Source: Bifidobacterium vansinderenii
Lineage (GTDB): Bacteria > Actinomycetota > Actinomycetes > Actinomycetales > Bifidobacteriaceae
NCBI RefSeq assembly: GCF_002234915.1
Contig: NZ_NEWD01000012.1
Span: 1-45,069 of the forward strand
Direction: 5' to 3'
DNA length: 45,069 nt
Positions 37,491 through 44,626 of this stretch are shown piece after piece. The position numbers were made by a program, and so were the translations under genes. The notes beneath the pieces are model-generated. The model was not told the DNA's origin and ran no database searches. It saw only the letters and a list, made by a program, of their open reading frames with translations. Positions within the stretch are counted from its first letter, which is position 1, and each line of letters starts with the position of its first letter.

Positions 37491-38912
37491 TCACACGCCC
37501 TGCTGGAAGTCCTGGGGCATGTCCTGGAAGCGGGAGTTGGCGCCAAGGAACGCGAGTCCGAACGTCTCCGTGGGGCCGTTACGGTGCTTCGCCATGATGA
37601 TGTCGGCCTCGCCCGGGCGGTCCTCCTTGTCGTAGAAGTCGGGTCGGTGCACCAGGAACACCACGTCGGCGTCCTGCTCGATCGAACCGGATTCACGCAG
37701 ATCGGACAGCTGCGGCTTCTTGTCGTTGCGCATCTCCGGGCCACGGTTCAGCTGCGAAAGCGCCACCACGGGCACCTCGAGCTCCTTGGCCAGCAGCTTG
37801 AGCGCACGCGAGAACTCGGACACCTCCTGCTGGCGGCTCTCCACGGCCTTGCCGGAGCTCATGAGCTGCAGGTAGTCGATCACCACGAGCTTGAGGTCGT
37901 TGGTCTGCTTGAGGCGGCGGCACTTCGCGCGGATCTCCATGAGGCTCATGTTCGGCGAATCGTCGATGAACAGCGGCGCGTTGGCGAGCTTGCCCCAGAA
38001 GTTGTTGAGCGTGTTCCAGCGTTCGGGCGTGATCTCGTCGGCGCGGCGCAGTGCACCCAGCGGGATGTTCGTCTCGGCGGCGATGATGCGCTGCGCGAGT
38101 TCGTTCTTGCTCATCTCCAGGGAGAACACGACGGTGGTCATGTTCGCGTGCAGGGCCGCGTGGCGCGCGAAGTCGATGCCGAGTGTGGACTTGCCCATGG
38201 CCGGACGTCCGGCGACCACGATCATCTGGCCGGGCTGCAGGCCTTGGGTCACGTCGTCGATGTCACGGAAACCGGTGGGCACGCCCTTCTGGATCAGGCC
38301 GTTCTGCAGGGCGTCGAGCTGGTTGAGCGTCTCCTCCACCACGGGGCCGATGGCCTCGTAGTCCTGACGCACCTTGCCCACGCTCATCTCGTACACCTCG
38401 GCCTGCGCGAGGTTCACGATATCCTCAGCCTGCGAGCCTTCCGCGGAGTAGCCCATCTGCGCGATCTTGGTGCCCGCGGCAATCACGTTGCGCAGGATCG
38501 CGCGCTGGTGCACGATGTCCGCATAATACGTGGCGTTCGCGGCGGTGGGCACGGACGCGACCAGACTATGCAGATAGTCGGCGCCGCCCACCTTCTCGAG
38601 ATTGCCCTCCTTCAGGAGTTCGTTCGCCACGATCACCGCGTCCACCGGCTGCGAGGCGGAGAACAGCGTGATGATCGCCTCATACACGGTCTGATGCTTG
38701 GGCTGATAGAAGTCGGTGACGTCGATCATCTGGCTGACCTCGCCGATCGCGTCCTTGCTCATGAGCATGCCGCCGAGCACGGCCATCTCCGCGTTGTCGT
38801 CGTGCGGGGGGACACGGTCGAAGATCGGGTCGCGATCCGACCGCCCGTTGTGCGCGGAGGGGACTCCGTCTCCGCGCTCGTTCCTCTCAAACGTCTGTTC
38901 TGCCATACTCAC
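37491..38912 (-). CDS. dnaB: Replicative DNA helicase DnaB
   Basis: 473 residues from GTG 38912, or 471 from ATG 38906. The N-terminal DnaB domain (about 38-140; PPHDDNAEMAVLGGML, FYQPKHQTVYEAI) is followed by the RecA-like ATPase: Walker A GRPAMGKST near 235, VVFSLEMSKNELAQRI, Walker B KLVVIDYLQLM, the arginine-rich SQLNRGPEMRNDKKPQLSDLRESGSIEQDADVV, and KHRNGPTETFGLAF. It unwinds DNA ahead of the replisome. No intein is present. The GTG start overlaps the kinase stop codon (GTGA), which suggests translational coupling. A TACAAT just upstream could also give a leaderless message starting at the ATG. The usual neighbours rplI, ssb and rpsR are absent. Confidence 0.93.
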   Translation of the reverse strand: MSMAEQTFERNERGDGVPSAHNGRSDRDPIFDRVPPHDDNAEMAVLGGMLMSKDAIGEVSQMIDVTDFYQPKHQTVYEAIITLFSASQPVDAVIVANELLKEGNLEKVGGADYLHSLVASVPTAANATYYADIVHQRAILRNVIAAGTKIAQMGYSAEGSQAEDIVNLAQAEVYEMSVGKVRQDYEAIGPVVEETLNQLDALQNGLIQKGVPTGFRDIDDVTQGLQPGQMIVVAGRPAMGKSTLGIDFARHAALHANMTTVVFSLEMSKNELAQRIIAAETNIPLGALRRADEITPERWNTLNNFWGKLANAPLFIDDSPNMSLMEIRAKCRRLKQTNDLKLVVIDYLQLMSSGKAVESRQQEVSEFSRALKLLAKELEVPVVALSQLNRGPEMRNDKKPQLSDLRESGSIEQDADVVFLVHRPDFYDKEDRPGEADIIMAKHRNGPTETFGLAFLGANSRFQDMPQDFQQGV

Positions 38913-40489
38913 GATTGTAGGAACGACACCATAACGGCACTCATGCTCTCAATGTTCACGGTTTCTAAATTGGCCGCGGAGAACGGATATCCACCTCCGA
39001 TTTTCCATGCAGCGCCGATTATCAGTGCCATCATCACAACGGCGAGCACCCTGCTTCTGCGCTGCTTTCGACGCTCCTGCTTTGACCGTTCCACCGGACT
39101 GGGTTCGTAGTCAACCGCACGATTCGTGCTGCGTATGCCACGCTGCTGACCGTCCGTCACTGATCGCTTACTCCGGAATTCCTCCTCGCTCATAGTGGCC
39201 ACGACATCCTGCTCACTCCGCGATTGGGGATATCGAGACGATTGGGGATATCGAGACGATTCCGGCATCTTTCGTGTCGGCTTCACCTCAGAATTCTCAG
39301 ACGTTTTCTTCCCAAGAGTTCGCGTGGATCCGTCGTGTACAGCCTTCGTCTCGCCGAGCTGATCGTCTTTCTTATCGATGTCCTTGGTTTCAGGCAGCGA
39401 TTTATGCGCTGAGGATAGAGTTCCACCGTCCTGCCTTAAACGGACGGGCTTGTATCCGAGTCCGTTTTCCTCGTCCGTACCCTGACTGTCCGATACGTGG
39501 CCACGAGGATTGTTCCGCGCCTCCAGCAACGCCTGTTGCAGTTCATCAACGGTCTGGTACCTGTCCTCCGGTCGCAACGCAGTCGCTTGGGCGATCACCT
39601 TACGCAGGGCCTTACTGCCATGTTCCGGTTCAGGCAATGGGCCGGTGCATCGTCGTATCATCGACATTTCCAACGGCATTTCGGCATACGGCAGCGCACC
39701 ATCGTTGCACATGCGAAACAGAATAATGCCCACACTGTAAATATCGGCACGTGAATCATACAGCTTGTGCTGCAGACGTTCCGGTGCTGCATACTGCATG
39801 GTGGCAACGGCCGTAGGCGCATCCTCACCGTCGGCGAGTAAACGCGAAATGCTGAAATCGCCAAGTTTATACCGCCTGTCGATGTCATCATAGAAAACGT
39901 TGGCCGGTTTCACATCACGGTGAAGAATGTGCATCGTCTCGCCATCGATCTTCATCGTCGTCGTGGTGCACTGCAACAATCCGGCACACAAGTCGAGTCC
40001 TACCGCAAAGACCTTATTCTCATCATATGGATGGGCCTTGTCGCGATCATCATTGATGACGTCCGCCAGGGTCCGCGGCAGATACTCCATGAGAATGACC
40101 AGATCCTGACCGGAACGATCGTCATTCCTCCATGCCACCGTGGCATGATCCCAGATCTGCACGATATGGGATCGTCCCCGCAAGCTTTCCATGAGCTGCC
40201 ATTCCATGCTCGCCTTACGGACACGTTCAGCTTTTTGATTGTCCGTCAACGGATGGGATGATTCCTCGGAGAACATCTCGATCACCTTTACGGCGCCCTC
40301 CAGCACACCATCGTATCCGGCATTGACCGCGAAAATAGCGCGATCCGAACCCACATACAGGCAGTCCCCCAGACTCCATGAGACCTCTTCGACGTAGGAG
40401 TTCGTACCACGCCGTACATGCGACACCGCCTGAAGATACCGGCTCCTCTGCTCACGTACCCGCGTCTCTACACTCACGCTTTTTACCAT
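38909..40489 (-). CDS. Membrane-anchored Ser/Thr protein kinase
   Basis: 526 residues. The kinase domain spans about 37-315: Lys in EGAVKVIEMF (K68), HRDVKPANVF (190-199), DFSISRLL (211-218; DFS in place of DFG), TMQYAAPERL and DIYSVGIILFRM. The Gly-rich loop is degenerate (GDCLYVGSDRAIF). Residues 320-478 are a hydrophilic linker rich in Ser, Lys and Glu, with an 18-base tandem duplication giving SSRYPQ twice. One membrane span (about 479-498, VLAVVMMALIIGAAWKIGG) leaves a short outer tail with no PASTA or sensor domain. It is the third gene of the GrpE-like/Hsp70-like set, 39 bases after the Hsp70 gene, and ends in a GTGA overlap with dnaB. Its DNA looks less GC-rich than dnaB. Confidence 0.88.
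   Translation of the reverse strand: MVKSVSVETRVREQRSRYLQAVSHVRRGTNSYVEEVSWSLGDCLYVGSDRAIFAVNAGYDGVLEGAVKVIEMFSEESSHPLTDNQKAERVRKASMEWQLMESLRGRSHIVQIWDHATVAWRNDDRSGQDLVILMEYLPRTLADVINDDRDKAHPYDENKVFAVGLDLCAGLLQCTTTTMKIDGETMHILHRDVKPANVFYDDIDRRYKLGDFSISRLLADGEDAPTAVATMQYAAPERLQHKLYDSRADIYSVGIILFRMCNDGALPYAEMPLEMSMIRRCTGPLPEPEHGSKALRKVIAQATALRPEDRYQTVDELQQALLEARNNPRGHVSDSQGTDEENGLGYKPVRLRQDGGTLSSAHKSLPETKDIDKKDDQLGETKAVHDGSTRTLGKKTSENSEVKPTRKMPESSRYPQSSRYPQSRSEQDVVATMSEEEFRSKRSVTDGQQRGIRSTNRAVDYEPSPVERSKQERRKQRRSRVLAVVMMALIIGAAWKIGGGYPFSAANLETVNIESMSAVMVSFLQS
39221..39256. repeat. 18-base tandem duplication in the kinase gene
   Basis: CGATTGGGGATATCGAGA is repeated exactly twice, in frame, within the region encoding the flexible linker. 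It could change copy number by slippage without breaking the frame. Confidence 0.8.
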
Positions 40490-40528
40490 GTCTTTGTTCT
40501 CTCACTCCTGTATATCTAAAATTCAGAC

Positions 40529-42037
40529 TTAAAACTCAAACCCATCGCCGGAAATTTTGACTTTCCCCTGTGCGGTGTGGCCAGCGTCGTCCCACGCTTC
40601 GAGCTCCAACAGTCCGTCAGTATTCAACGTCATCATCACTTTGAATTTCGTGCCCGCAGGTACTTCGACACCAAAATCAAAAGTCACTTCGAGAACGGCA
40701 TTGTCATTAAGCGAGTTATATATCTCACTGGCTGCGACATCCTCATCGGTCTCATATACGCGAATCGTCACCAACGCGCTATCGCTATGCATGGCATAAG
40801 TACGAATCTCACTCGCAGGAAGCACCGCACCCTTGCGAATCAAATTGGAAATGATTCTTTTATCGGAGTCCGCACGTTCAAAGGCACGGATGCCATATGA
40901 CAACGGGGCCCTGTCACGCAGGAATGAATTGTCACGCGCATTTGGATCGCAATGTTGCGCATAATACGCGGCGCCGGACACCACCGCGTACTCAGGACGT
41001 TCCACGACGACAGGCAAACTCGGGAACCGCTTTTGCAGGGCCGCCTTCACCTGCGGCATGTTCGACGATCCGCCCACACAGACGATACGCTGCACCGCAC
41101 CGCCATCCACATGAGCAATCACCCTATCCACCGCAGCCATTGTCCGTTCCAGAAGATCGTGAGTCAGCTCCTCGAACTTGGCACGCGTCACATCGATCTC
41201 ATACGATTTCTTGTCCGACAGGATGAACATGGCTGTCGCCACATCCCTATCCGACAACTCCCATTTCACCTCTTCGGCGGCGTTCCGAATGTAGCTCCTA
41301 TCCATCGGGGTAAGCGGTATTGGCCCATACTCGCGCTCGCATTCCTCGATGAGGTACCGCTCCAAACAATCGTCCCAGTCTCGACCTCCGCAACGTTCCA
41401 TCTCAGAAGTCAGCACATCAAACTTGGCACCCTTGCTGCCGTCGGCCGTGACCACGGCAATGTCGCACGTACCGCCGCCAAGATCGTAGACCAACACCCG
41501 TGTATCGTTGTCGAGAGTATTGCGAAAATAGTTGAGCGCCGCCGCCACCGGTTCCTTGATCAATCCGATCACATTCAATCCCGGCCCGCCGGCCTCCGCC
41601 GGCAGACATGCGGCCTGACGAATGATCTCTTTCTCCATATCCGTGAACTTGGCCGGCACGGAGAGCACCACACCGTCGATCCTGCCATCAAAACCATCCT
41701 GGGGAGACACCGAAATGACAAGATCGGCGACCTCTTTGAGGATTGCCGCGGCGATCTGCACCGAACTGAATGATCGTCCATCGATCACTCGGGAGGCAAC
41801 ACCACCACGCCGGTCAAGAAGATTGAGCTTGATTGCTCGCACCACCTGTTCCGCCTCTTCGCCGTAGCTCCTCTTCTCGGCCTCCTTGCCGGTGCGCACG
41901 CCCCTTTTCCGCCCATAATAAAATACCGACGGCACGGCATAGTCATTTTTGCGTTTGAACACCACCGTGCCGCCGAACTCCTCATCGACGGATGCGGCTT
42001 CAGAAAAACTCGTACCGAAGTCTATGCCGATCCTCAT
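40529..42037 (-). CDS. Hsp70-like (DnaK-family) ATPase without the C-terminal lid
   Basis: 502 residues; ATG 42037 follows GAGGGGAG. The actin/Hsp70 ATPase domain (1-365) is intact: phosphate-1 GIDFGTSFSEA (4-14), VVLSVPAKFTDMEKEIIRQAA, IKEPVAAALNYF, phosphate-2 VYDLGGGTCDIAVV (183-196) and the adenosine motif VCVGGSSNMPQV (319-330). A beta-type substrate domain follows (about 378-495; APLSYGIRAF...GAVLPASE...LVTIRVYE...LEVTFDFGVEVPAGTKFKV). The acidic-hydrophobic linker of DnaK (DLLLLD) is replaced by SFLRDR and the helical lid is missing. That argues against a normal DnaJ-driven folding cycle. It lies between the GrpE-like and kinase genes and is probably a specialised chaperone or switch rather than the housekeeping DnaK. 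Confidence 0.88.
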   Translation of the reverse strand: MRIGIDFGTSFSEAASVDEEFGGTVVFKRKNDYAVPSVFYYGRKRGVRTGKEAEKRSYGEEAEQVVRAIKLNLLDRRGGVASRVIDGRSFSSVQIAAAILKEVADLVISVSPQDGFDGRIDGVVLSVPAKFTDMEKEIIRQAACLPAEAGGPGLNVIGLIKEPVAAALNYFRNTLDNDTRVLVYDLGGGTCDIAVVTADGSKGAKFDVLTSEMERCGGRDWDDCLERYLIEECEREYGPIPLTPMDRSYIRNAAEEVKWELSDRDVATAMFILSDKKSYEIDVTRAKFEELTHDLLERTMAAVDRVIAHVDGGAVQRIVCVGGSSNMPQVKAALQKRFPSLPVVVERPEYAVVSGAAYYAQHCDPNARDNSFLRDRAPLSYGIRAFERADSDKRIISNLIRKGAVLPASEIRTYAMHSDSALVTIRVYETDEDVAASEIYNSLNDNAVLEVTFDFGVEVPAGTKFKVMMTLNTDGLLELEAWDDAGHTAQGKVKISGDGFEF

Positions 42038-42124
42038 GCCTGTCTCCCCTCATATCATCTTTCCGCAACGCAGTCCGCCATTGCCAAGATGCACTTCCAT
42101 ATCCCAATATGTCTGCCCTGTTGC

Positions 42125-43468
42125 TCAACGTTGCCCTGCAAGCACAACGATCTCCTTACGGTCCAATTGAGCGAACTGGTCCGAATGGAACCCCGGCGCC
42201 ATGCTCGATGCGACGATCGCCGTGTCGGGGTCAAAACTTCCGACCCTTCCATCACCAACAGCGCTATCGATCTTATGCAGTTCCGGGTCAAACGGTGTTC
42301 CCGGCTTCGAACGGACCACAGTCACCCCGTACATATTCAACTGTCGTTCCACAGCATCTCGAACCACCTGCAGGGTTTTCACCGCCTTGAGATGGTCCTC
42401 GTCCAAAGCCGCCACGACATTGCCGCTTCTCCTGCGCTTGATCATATCGCTTTGATATGTGTACTGACTATCAAGCATGATGTAGGTTTCAATAAGCTGG
42501 CGTGCGTGCGTAATGGTTTCGTCAGCGACGTATCGCTCCTGGAAATCACGCATGCTCCTGACAAGCTCGCGAGCGCCGCTCTGCATCTGCCGCATAGTGG
42601 TTTGCCACTCAAGCTGTGTGGCAGACCATCGTTCGGTGACCGCCTGCATATCCTGTGACGTTTCCACATGCCGCGGCCCCGCTCCGTCCGATCCCGTTGA
42701 CACGAATCGATCACTCTGATTCACCGCAGACGCGTCATTCAGCGCGGTCCGCCCCGTGGTCGCAACACGACGACGCTGTCTGCGTGGATTCACCGCAGCC
42801 GGCTTCCCATCAAGTCGCACAGTAGATTCCGCGTCGGCATCTGTAATACGATCGTTTGTCGACCTTACGGTGGCGCCGTCGTCATGGCCGACGTGGGCCA
42901 CACGGCCATCCGCAGCATCAGTTCGATCGGCACCACTTAATAACCCTTGCTGTTCACAGAGCTGTCTCAACGCGGTATTCAAAGACAAACTACCGCCATC
43001 CCGTACATGATGATACCGAGACAGCTGCTGGAACATATCTACAAATTGTTGCAACCATTCATCGGATTCAACTGCTCCGGTAAACAGATACCCGATATTG
43101 CCCCTACTGCCATCAAAACTTGTGGAGTAATCCTTCCCGGACCACTGCTGATATAAACCAGCTAATAGATAGTACAGATCAAATGAGGTAGGCTTCCACT
43201 GCGTTGGCACCGGCTCACCCTGCATGAGCAAATAGGCGATCTTGAGGAGACTGGAGTCGAACGCGTTCACATTTTGATGCTCTTGCCACGCAATGACCTC
43301 ACGGTCCATCGTTTCGATTATCGTCCCCATCCGAGCAAGCCGATCATCATTGGCGGTTTTGTCCCGCATTTTGCCGTCATAGGCTATTCGGGCATCCTCA
43401 TAAAACTGTAGACTTCCCGGCATGGCCGTGTTGTCCCTACCGGATTTTCCTTTACCGAACAACGCCAT
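42125..43468 (-). CDS. GrpE-like protein with an extra N-terminal domain
   Basis: 447 residues from ATG 43468, 7 bases after GAAGGA. Residues 1-175 are a helical domain that I do not recognise (DFYEDARIAY-like start, FDLYYLLAGLYQQWSGKDYS). Residues 178-265 look disordered. Residues 268-380 are a long predicted coiled coil (WSATQLEWQTTMRQMQSGARELVRSMRDFQERY...LKAVKTLQVVRDAVERQL). The last 70 residues resemble the GrpE beta-domain: YGVTVVRSKPGTPFDPELHKIDSAV (GxxFDPxxHxA at 390-403) and an ending DRKEIVVLAGQR. GrpE is the nucleotide exchange factor of Hsp70 proteins. With an Hsp70-like gene next door, this is probably its dedicated exchange factor. The function of the N-terminal domain is unknown. 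Confidence 0.7.
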   Translation of the reverse strand: MALFGKGKSGRDNTAMPGSLQFYEDARIAYDGKMRDKTANDDRLARMGTIIETMDREVIAWQEHQNVNAFDSSLLKIAYLLMQGEPVPTQWKPTSFDLYYLLAGLYQQWSGKDYSTSFDGSRGNIGYLFTGAVESDEWLQQFVDMFQQLSRYHHVRDGGSLSLNTALRQLCEQQGLLSGADRTDAADGRVAHVGHDDGATVRSTNDRITDADAESTVRLDGKPAAVNPRRQRRRVATTGRTALNDASAVNQSDRFVSTGSDGAGPRHVETSQDMQAVTERWSATQLEWQTTMRQMQSGARELVRSMRDFQERYVADETITHARQLIETYIMLDSQYTYQSDMIKRRRSGNVVAALDEDHLKAVKTLQVVRDAVERQLNMYGVTVVRSKPGTPFDPELHKIDSAVGDGRVGSFDPDTAIVASSMAPGFHSDQFAQLDRKEIVVLAGQR

Positions 43469-43525
43469 AATCGCATCCTTCCATACATCGATGCATCCGC
43501 CCATATCTTGCCCCCTATCAAGTGT

Positions 43526-43554
43526 ACTTTACGTCGTTGTTTACAGGTCTTCAA
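43526..43554 (-). promoter_or_regulatory. Candidate promoter of the GrpE-like/Hsp70-like/kinase set
   Basis: On the minus strand TTGAAG and TAAAGT are exactly 17 bases apart, about 58 bases before the start codon at 43468. The sequence around it is AT-rich. Confidence 0.5.
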
Positions 43555-43862
43555 GAATAGCAAAAAGATCCCCCATAAAATGTAGTGGTCACATAGTGTT
43601 CCGCGACGTATTTCCTCCACATCGTTGCCCTGCCCCGCATACCCCCTTCCAAGTATCTAGGCAACATGATCCCATCATGATGCGAAAGAGGACCAACGGG
43701 ATCACGATCTTCGACAGAGCAAGCTTCCCGTGGCAGAAAATCGCCAGTGGCCATAACAGGAACTACGATTGGACGACAACACGGCAAACGGATGACGGCG
43801 ACGACGCCCGGCATCTCGATCGGCACCGCGCCGGCACCGCATTAGGGAAAGGAATCTCCACC
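43555..43862. other. Gap between divergent genes
   Basis: About 310 bases between the promoter of the GrpE-like set and the YbjN-like gene. An in-frame extension of the YbjN frame exists here but has no ribosome site and no family resemblance. A palindrome ATGATCCCATCATGATG lies near 43668. Nothing else was recognised. Confidence 0.4.
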
Positions 43863-44393
43863 ATGGCATACTCAACCGCACTGTACGCTCGCGTCAAGGA
43901 ATACCTCGACTCCGACGGCCTGCACTACGACGAGGACCCCACGCAGGGCCGTTTCGAGTTCGGCATCAACATTCACTCCAAGGTGCGCAACGTGCGCGTG
44001 CGCATCTTCGTGGACGACGACAACTTCAGCGTGGTCGCCGTTCCGCAGTTCGGCGGCGACACCCAGGACCCGGAGAACATGCGCGCGCTGGCCGAGTACA
44101 CCGCCCGCGCCAACTACGGTCTGGTGCAGGGCAACTTCCAGTTCGACTTCCGTGACGGCGAGATCCGCTACTGGAGCGCCATGCTCACCGATGATGACAG
44201 CCTGCCGTCGATCCACACGATCGGCCGCGTGGTGTTCGTGGCGATCATGATGTGGGAGCGTTACGGCGACGGCTACCTCAAGGTGGGCCTGGCCGGCGTG
44301 GATCCGGAGACCGCGGTGAACGAGGCCGAGAACCCGGAGCCGCAGGCCCCGGCCGAGCCCTCCCCCACCACCATCGATCCCGAGATCCTGTAA
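43863..44393 (+). CDS. YbjN-domain protein
   Basis: 176 residues; ATG 43863 follows AAAGGAATCTCCACC. It has the alpha/beta YbjN fold, related to type III secretion chaperones: LYARVKEYLDSDGLHYDEDPTQGRFEFGINIHSKVRNVRVRIFVDDDNFSVVAVPQF, then NMRALAEYTARANYGLVQGNFQFDFRDGEIRYWSAM and a final helix IGRVVFVAIMMWERYGDGYLKV. The last 30 residues are a Pro/Glu-rich tail. YbjN proteins have no settled biochemical role; they are linked to stress responses and may bind other proteins. The codon use is strongly GC-biased, as in well-expressed genes. It is divergent from the chaperone-kinase set. Confidence 0.8.
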   Translation: MAYSTALYARVKEYLDSDGLHYDEDPTQGRFEFGINIHSKVRNVRVRIFVDDDNFSVVAVPQFGGDTQDPENMRALAEYTARANYGLVQGNFQFDFRDGEIRYWSAMLTDDDSLPSIHTIGRVVFVAIMMWERYGDGYLKVGLAGVDPETAVNEAENPEPQAPAEPSPTTIDPEIL

Positions 44394-44413
44394 GGAGCAG
44401 GTTCACACGCTTT

Positions 44414-44437
44414 GGCTCCCCTTTTCGGAGGGGAGCC
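44414..44437 (+). terminator. Hairpin after the YbjN-like gene
   Basis: GGCTCCCC and GGGGAGCC pair around an 8-base loop 20 bases after the stop codon, without a T-run. It probably helps termination or protects the 3' end. Confidence 0.5.
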
Positions 44438-44509
44438 TATGTATGGGCTCTGTGTTCTGTTTACCATGGCGTAACTTTGATCGAACGTAATCCCCAGCTC
44501 TGCACGTAC

Positions 44510-44626
44510 TTATCCACTATCTGTGGATAGAAATTCGGAGTTATCCACATTTTGGGCGTGTCTCAGTGGATAATCCACTCACTTTTCCACATCATGGGGA
44601 TAACTATGTGGAAAACATGGGGATAA
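44510..44626. other. DnaA-box cluster (origin-like or DnaA-titrating region)
   Basis: Within 117 bases there is one perfect DnaA box, TTATCCACA (44541-44549). Seven others have one mismatch: TTATCCACT (44510-44518), CTATCCACA (minus, 44522-44530), TTATCCACT (minus, 44565-44573), TTTTCCACA (44583-44591), TTATCCCCA (minus, 44595-44603), TTTTCCACA (minus, 44607-44615) and TTATCCCCA (minus, 44618-44626). The palindrome AGTGGATAATCCACT spans 44565-44579. An AT-rich stretch follows at about 44661-44690. No rpmH or dnaA gene is adjacent. Confidence 0.7.

Follow-up and report, generated by a model that had tools for sequence, protein, structure and literature searches.

A lidless Hsp70-like ATPase, a GrpE homologue and a membrane-anchored Ser/Thr kinase encoded in a cassette upstream of dnaB in Bifidobacterium vansinderenii

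The present study examined a 45,069-nucleotide stretch of DNA from Bifidobacterium vansinderenii (RefSeq assembly GCF_002234915.1, contig NZ_NEWD01000012.1, positions 1 to 45,069), hereafter the window. It spans the full length of contig C4, one of the 68 that make up a 3.1 Mb genome. Upstream of dnaB the window carries an inserted cassette of four genes that encode a GrpE-like protein, an Hsp70-like ATPase, a Ser/Thr kinase, and a YbjN-like protein (Table 1), an architecture and set of family assignments that we regard as practically certain. Judging from gene neighbourhoods, the Hsp70, which lacks a lid, and the GrpE homologue, which is extended by an additional N-terminal domain, are encoded by a conserved pair of genes that often lies beside a VWA-PP2C-kinase triad resembling TerY-P; in the window the pair is instead followed by a membrane-anchored kinase of another lineage, a context so far found in Bifidobacterium only.

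Results

A preliminary description of the window, made from its sequence alone, had reported the first three of these genes as a same-strand run with gaps of 87 and 39 bases, and the open reading frames (ORFs) were recovered exactly so. The stop codon of the kinase gene and the GTG start of dnaB overlap by four bases (38909-38912), and dnaB, an essential gene, may therefore now be transcribed from the cassette. A shared promoter that had been placed at 43526-43554 was not recovered among the consensus matches, the scan having returned 3 promoter-like sites vs. 3.8 from shuffled sequences.

Table 1. Features of the dnaB-proximal end of the window
Feature	Position	Strand	Evidence or remark
GrpE-like protein, 447 aa	42125..43468	-	in-frame ATG at 43504 would give 459 aa
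GrpE-homologous part, residues 268-447: 80-residue helix, second helix, beta wing with GTPFDPELH	42128..42667	-	
Lidless Hsp70-like ATPase, 502 aa: nucleotide-binding domain and beta-sandwich substrate-binding domain, no alpha lid, altered linker	40529..42037	-	PF00012 189.8 bits, model
Ser/Thr kinase of the Hanks type, 526 aa, with a long polar tail and a single C-terminal membrane span	38909..40489	-	Pkinase 96.7 bits, motifs, hydropathy
Predicted kinase membrane span, residues 481-499	38993..39049	-	Kyte-Doolittle mean 2.04
YbjN-like protein, 176 aa, divergent	43863..44393	+	local profile
Insert of 5.5 kb (GC 55.5%) separating dnaB from its ancestral upstream sequence	38922..44452	.	blastn boundaries, GC
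Ancestral dnaB-MATE intergenic sequence, moved away from dnaB by the insert	44453..44626	.	blastn
dnaB, directly downstream of the kinase gene	37491..38912	-	GTG start, alternative ATG at 38906

Relatives of the cassette were drawn from a collection of species genomes scanned with four Hsp70-like sequences, from which the best 80 of 374 confirmed stretches were retained. The 40 closest loci (L021-L060) comprised two from Bifidobacterium, mostly bins of Bacillota, and single Tannerella, Treponema, Synergistaceae, and Planctomycetia bins.

The Hsp70-like protein belongs to the Hsp70 superfamily (189.8 bits against PF00012, cut-off 20.6) and retains the ATPase motifs IKL, KEPVAAA, DLGGGTCD, and VGGSSNMP. 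It is not a canonical DnaK, having neither the alpha-helical lid nor the DVLL(I/L)D linker; both absences had been proposed in the preliminary description and were borne out by alignment against the DnaK of the host, in which 147 residues follow the beta-sandwich substrate-binding domain (SBD) vs. nine in the window protein. The linker (DVLLID in DnaK) is replaced by NSFLRD in the window and often by FLxD or YLRD in the relatives. Since all 34 aligned rows, i.e., the window protein and 33 of the 40 relatives (L034, L037, L039, L041, L043, L045, and L047 being left out), end 0-13 residues past the beta sandwich, the lack of a lid appears to be a trait of the family and not a local truncation. 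The predicted structure (mean predicted local distance difference test score 88.8) was closest to ATP-bound, docked DnaK (best match 4b9q, E 2e-39), which makes docking between the nucleotide-binding domain (NBD) and the SBD plausible in this lidless protein. The canonical grpE and dnaK of the host are located elsewhere in the genome; a third Hsp70 match there (G000:C32) was dropped, its ORF reading by eye as a xylulokinase-like sugar kinase.

The first gene of the cassette encodes a GrpE homologue in which a helical N-terminal domain (residues ~13-175) and a disordered linker (181-264) precede the long helix and beta wing of GrpE (268-447). The C-terminal GrpE similarity that had been read from this 447-residue protein was sustained by its relatives, by a family profile, and by its predicted fold. 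Three of the relatives exceeded the Pfam cut-off for GrpE themselves (L027 38.3, L060 43.2, and L058 26.9 bits), the three best matches of a 33-row profile in the PDB were GrpE structures (4ani, 6e-8; 1dkg, 1.3e-5; 3a6m, 4.3e-5), and the eight best Foldseek matches of the AF2 model were likewise GrpE, four of them at E<=0.001. By profile and fold (long helix, C-terminal beta wing) the protein is thus a member of the GrpE family, the rows of the family alignment scarcely covering its N-terminal domain. Two TVR motifs in the otherwise divergent linker (residues 200 and 216), both kept in Bifidobacterium tissieri, are candidate phosphorylation sites. The disordered tails of Escherichia coli GrpE reach into the SBD, according to the pertinent passages of PMC12915176.

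The two genes are tightly linked among the relatives. A GrpE-like gene lay within 150 bases upstream of the Hsp70 gene, or overlapped it, in 37/40 of the closest loci (in L055 weakly, E 4e-5), the exceptions being L052, in which it is 1.8 kb away, L050, in which none was found, and L054, in which it is fused to a radical-SAM activase. The control comprised the 40 weaker Hsp70 loci from that scan; none of them had a GrpE-like gene within this distance, and the GrpE-profile match in control locus L096 was 8.5 kb from the Hsp70. The 37 are not independent cases, because the adjacency profiles were trained on the same loci, many of these derive from related Selenomonadaceae bins, and two (L021 and L059) are the Bifidobacterium sequences of the query. 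Linkage in 37/40 relatives, with canonical grpE and dnaK elsewhere in the genome, nonetheless lends good support to the dedicated Hsp70 and exchange-factor pair that the preliminary description envisaged. In the Tannerella and Treponema bins, the gene immediately preceding that of the lidless Hsp70 joins a radical-SAM activase (Fer4_12) to a C-terminal GrpE domain (L054:1256-3181, 34.9 bits for GrpE; L055:6383-8017, 21.1 bits and sub-threshold).

Upstream of the pair, local profiles recovered VWA, PP2C, and kinase genes together in 23/40 relatives (L021 and L059 being represented by L010 and L017 in this count). Seven loci are cut by a contig end close upstream (L026, L034, L039, L041, L042, L048, and L057), and the complete triad is absent from the stretch examined in ten (L021, L025, L028, L037, L044, L049, L050, L054, L055, and L059), among which L028 holds a kinase fragment and L025 has weak PP2C and kinase matches downstream. 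Pfam recognised VWA, PP2C_2, and Pkinase in L027 and L023, VWA and PP2C_2 in L060, and PP2C_2 and Pkinase in L058, where VWA was just below the cut-off. Read by eye, the triad kinases of L027, L060, and L058 have a D(V/L/I)(N/S)xxN loop, DND or DPDN in place of DFG, and paired CxxC motifs in their tails, features that fit TerY-P as characterised in the relevant sections of PMC11090510.

The kinase of the window is of the Hanks type (Pkinase 96.7 bits), with VKVI, HRDVKPAN at 190, and DFS at 211; its glycine-rich loop is unmatched because the Pfam match begins at profile position 37. The DFS motif and the one membrane span noted earlier were confirmed by motif inspection and by hydropathy (a single hydrophobic span, ~481-499), DFS not being shared by the two kinase relatives, in B. 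tissieri and in a further family genome (G567), both of which have DFG. In a tree of 33 rows, in which two host rows (L121 and L122) are the same protein and triad rows were restricted to E<1e-90, the three Bifidobacterium kinases formed a clade (100/100) that fell with the host kinases and apart from the 23 triad-type kinases (99/99); the branches on either side were long. The window kinase scored 55.8 bits against the curated antiphage_MADS6 equivalog (MADS kinase MAD6 / PD-T4-6), far beneath its cut-off of 460. The best kinase match in PADLOC, which lists no cut-off for these matches, was mad6 (5e-36, residues 84-351, i.e., the kinase domain); on the cassette as a whole, PADLOC gave kinase-domain matches and weak matches to the Hsp70 and to coiled-coil regions.

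Within the Bifidobacteriaceae the cassette is rare. Counting the window's own genome in each case, the Hsp70 was found at E<=1e-45 in 4/189 genomes and the kinase at E<=1e-30 in 3/189, and in 3/189 this type of kinase adjoins the Hsp70; the GrpE-like protein was found at E<=1e-3 in 2/121 genomes, a set to which G567 does not belong. The exact trio occurs in the window and in B. tissieri DSM 100201 (G051), i.e., in 2/189 genomes. Conservation of all three genes together is accordingly upheld, though narrowly, by B. tissieri, the GrpE-Hsp70 pair being the conserved core. The Hsp70 and the kinase remain adjacent in G567 at 31-38% identity, and no GrpE-like gene was found in the 19 kb around its Hsp70; a weak GrpE-profile match (L016:13732-15372, E 1e-6) is a coiled-coil protein that looks DivIVA-like by eye. 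About 9 kb from this pair and on the opposite strand, G567 also carries VWA, PP2C, and a second, sub-threshold kinase-like gene, which falls on the triad side of the tree on a very long branch. In Bifidobacterium italicum Rab10A (G076; L017:8889-16258; L059), a 250-aa GrpE-like gene lies between two Hsp70 genes, and no kinase of the window type was found. The first of these Hsp70s ends in a SEC-C motif, and three YbjN-like genes and a gene resembling TraG/VirD4 by eye lie nearby. Beyond the family, the Hsp70 was recovered at E<=1e-45 in 1/396 genomes at the level of the phylum, and the GrpE-like protein in 1/394 at the level of the class, in both cases the window's own.

The 176-aa protein owes its YbjN label to the preliminary description; it has no match in Pfam, which lends the label no support. 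In B. tissieri and B. italicum, a local profile places its homologues next to the Hsp70/GrpE genes.

The boundaries of the insert were resolved by comparison with other Bifidobacterium genomes. DnaB of one relative (G007) is identical to that of the window, and DNA similarity to this genome ends at 38921; the match to sequence that precedes dnaB in five cassette-free relatives (L111-L115) starts again at 44453-44510 (blastn). The interval 44453-44626 was wholly or partly matched in L111, L112, L113, L114, and L115, with the match in L010 extending to 44718, and was unmatched in L116 and in the G007 stretches L110 and L117. The GC content of the insert is 55.5% vs. 61.5% in the rest of the window and is below that of all 67 equal-length windows over 1-38921 (lowest 57.6%), and GC at third codon positions is 0.58-0.63 in the insert genes vs. 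0.905 in dnaB, consistent with the earlier remark that the trio looks less GC-rich than dnaB. Because of these points of broken and resumed similarity and the lower GC values, we consider the 5.5 kb an insert, and its distribution and composition indicate that the cassette is mobile.

Across nine genomes of the genus, the cassette occupies the slot upstream of dnaB in two, and in five (G059, G063, G035, G023, and G046) the interval from dnaB to the MATE gene contains no ORF of 100 aa. In G007 the slot holds DUF1810 and PARG genes alongside the DO-GTPase2 and GAP1-M genes of a putative conflict system (L110:2151-9950, L117) in the 28 kb read, within which the far end was not reached, and in G055 a single gene of ~436 aa with a sub-threshold FtsZ_C match (L113:7029-8414; 20.8 vs. 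27 bits). The gap upstream of dnaB is thereby a site of accessory islands in Bifidobacterium, a context that leans towards accessory or conflict functions. The window cassette is not itself a GAP1-N2 / DO-GTPase conflict system: single-sequence searches with the G007 proteins detected neither a DO-GTPase nor a GAP1 homologue, whether in the window or in 43 loci. B. tissieri was the only one of the 40 relatives whose examined stretch was found to include dnaB.

Searches of mobile-element collections returned no plasmid match to the GrpE-like (1e-5) or the Hsp70-like protein (1e-40), 35 phage records with an Hsp70 match, each below 60% identity (24.7-29.6% among the 20 matches listed), and 10 IMG/VR loci at 23-30%; in those collections the lidless family therefore bears no sign of being phage- or plasmid-borne.

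Discussion

The pair shares with canonical GrpE-DnaK the long helix and beta wing of GrpE, the NBD and beta SBD of Hsp70, and a GrpE gene that comes first; it differs in the additional N-terminal domain and linker of GrpE, in the missing lid and altered linker of Hsp70, and in having no J-domain gene seen beside it, in a host that has its own set. TerY-P is described in the consulted sections of PMC11090510 as a triad of VWA, PP2C, and a zinc-ribbon kinase, and the resemblance to it resides in the relatives, 23/40 of which carry the three genes, with CxxC pairs in L027, L060, and L058; the window differs in having no member of the triad and a kinase of another lineage with HRD/DFS and a membrane span. 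GAP1-N2 systems belong to the GTPase-centric systems predicted to act in biological conflicts by Kaur et al. 2020 (PMC7159879), who, in the passages on these systems, name HSP70 with GrpE as one theme and kinase with PP2C and vWA as another and call the two non-overlapping. Hsp70, GrpE, kinase, PP2C, and vWA parts recur here, and GTPase-system genes lie upstream of dnaB in G007, but the clusters described above have no GTPase or GAP1 and bring both themes together in a single gene cluster, for the most part in Bacillota. CoCoNuT type III-A, as set out in the corresponding part of PMC11090510, likewise combines an Hsp70-like NBD/SBD unit with TerY-P; there the unit forms a fusion with McrC/McrB and carries a degenerate Walker A-like motif, whereas here the Hsp70 stands alone, keeps DnaK-like motifs, and has its own GrpE. 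The literature searched yielded no account of a single cluster that combines a lidless Hsp70 with GrpE and a VWA-PP2C-kinase triad.

The cassette is real and a variant of a loosely described class; its function is putative. We lean, by a small degree, towards a horizontally acquired accessory cassette that serves as a private chaperone machine under phosphorylation control. The GrpE-like protein is probably the dedicated exchange factor of the lidless Hsp70 and would reset it, while its N-terminal domain or long linker might recruit a target or a regulator. Without a lid, the Hsp70 would bind clients briefly and could act as a switch or assembly factor rather than as a general folder. The kinase may set the cycle by phosphorylating, at the membrane, the GrpE linker, the chaperone, or a shared client, a coupling for and against which we find the case evenly poised. 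The history of the slot suggests a role in stress or in conflict between genetic elements; a conflict or defence role is conceivable, and we put it forward tentatively.

Several observations weigh against this interpretation. The window GrpE-like protein scored 20.2 bits against PF01025 (E=5e-4), under the 25.8-bit cut-off, and was not listed in a Pfam search of its own genome at E<=1, and the B. italicum protein had no Pfam GrpE match and rests on local profiles; we nevertheless accept homology because the relatives, the family profile, and the predicted fold support it. A motif search found no J-domain partner in 43 loci, using a regular expression that by inspection fits the host DnaJ as a positive control; the sole match, inside the radical-SAM protein of L055, is not a J domain. 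Adjacency of grpE and dnaK is common in ordinary operons, and adjacency alone is thus no proof of a dedicated function. The 285 ORFs of the window gave no match to the VWA, PP2C, or triad-kinase profiles, so that a TerY-P triad is absent from it, and its kinase is of a different lineage from the triad kinase; the link to phosphorylation therefore rests on independent pairings. The cassette also corresponds to no named defence system. The proposal that the chaperone pair is coupled to a kinase is accordingly upheld in part: 23/40 relatives have a kinase-bearing triad, but its kinase is of the other lineage, and the window type is confined to 3/189 family genomes. From the tree and the neighbourhoods, the simplest reading is that the pair was coupled to kinases at least twice.

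The order of the two chaperone genes, the dissimilarity of the window kinase to the triad kinase, and the Hsp70-GrpE-Hsp70 arrangement of B. italicum, with no such kinase found, would all be expected if the pair were a paralogous grpE-dnaK set that aids DnaK/DnaJ as an ordinary extra stress chaperone, with the kinase a chance neighbour. We judge this unlikely, as the absence of a lid from all 34 aligned rows is unexpected of a general folder, a motif search of the 43 loci revealed no J-domain partner, the kinase adjoins this Hsp70 down to 31-38% identity in G567, and 23/40 loci carry a kinase-phosphatase triad. Somewhat less improbable, though still doubtful, is a defence module that acts by itself against phages or plasmids, triggered by the kinase and related to the HSP70/GrpE and kinase/PP2C/vWA themes of GAP1-N2 systems but lacking a GTPase. 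The DO-GTPase2 and GAP1-M genes in the same slot of G007 point in this direction, as do the description of both themes by Kaur et al. 2020 (PMC7159879, in the passages cited) and the mention, in the sections consulted of PMC11090510, that TerY-P-like modules with a kinase fused to an OB fold are cited as having been shown active against phages; set against these, Pfam revealed no recognisable effector (nuclease, pore, NADase) in the cassette, no GTPase/GAP1 homologue occurs in the 43 loci or the window, and PADLOC yields kinase-domain matches with weak Hsp70 and coiled-coil-region matches. The displacement of the ancestral upstream sequence by 5.5 kb and the 4-base overlap, through which the last gene may carry the transcription of dnaB, raise the further prospect that the cassette regulates replication by controlling the expression or loading of DnaB. 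This we hold to be very improbable, given that dnaB has no insert at all in 5/9 genomes of the genus and that, among the 40 relatives, it was found in the stretch examined for B. tissieri only.

Returning to the private chaperone machine, a broader and more conjectural extension, which we consider possible without favouring it, is that the lidless Hsp70 and its own GrpE are the core of an undescribed class of phosphorylation-gated chaperones. This class would have spread horizontally, recruited kinases at least twice (the triad kinase and the membrane kinase of Bifidobacterium) as well as a radical-SAM activase fused to GrpE, and served as a nucleotide-driven switch in inter-genomic conflict, not as a folding chaperone. 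Its spread would span Bacillota and Actinomycetota, with single metagenome bins for Planctomycetota, Bacteroidota, Spirochaetota, and Synergistota. If so, a dedicated pair whose Hsp70 has lost the lid and whose genes accompany kinase-phosphatase switches would be a rare bacterial example of an Hsp70 employed as a regulated molecular switch; because the system is sparse in Bifidobacterium, it is testable by simple deletion and transfer.

Two further features were seen among the relatives. A phage-type integrase gene, a sign of mobility, lies directly upstream of the GrpE-Hsp70 pair in L025 (L025:2866-3945), and a DUF6273-type protein is encoded between PP2C and GrpE at L060:5848-6873 (Pfam), L053:5893-6882, and L052:3219-4898 (the latter two by local profile).

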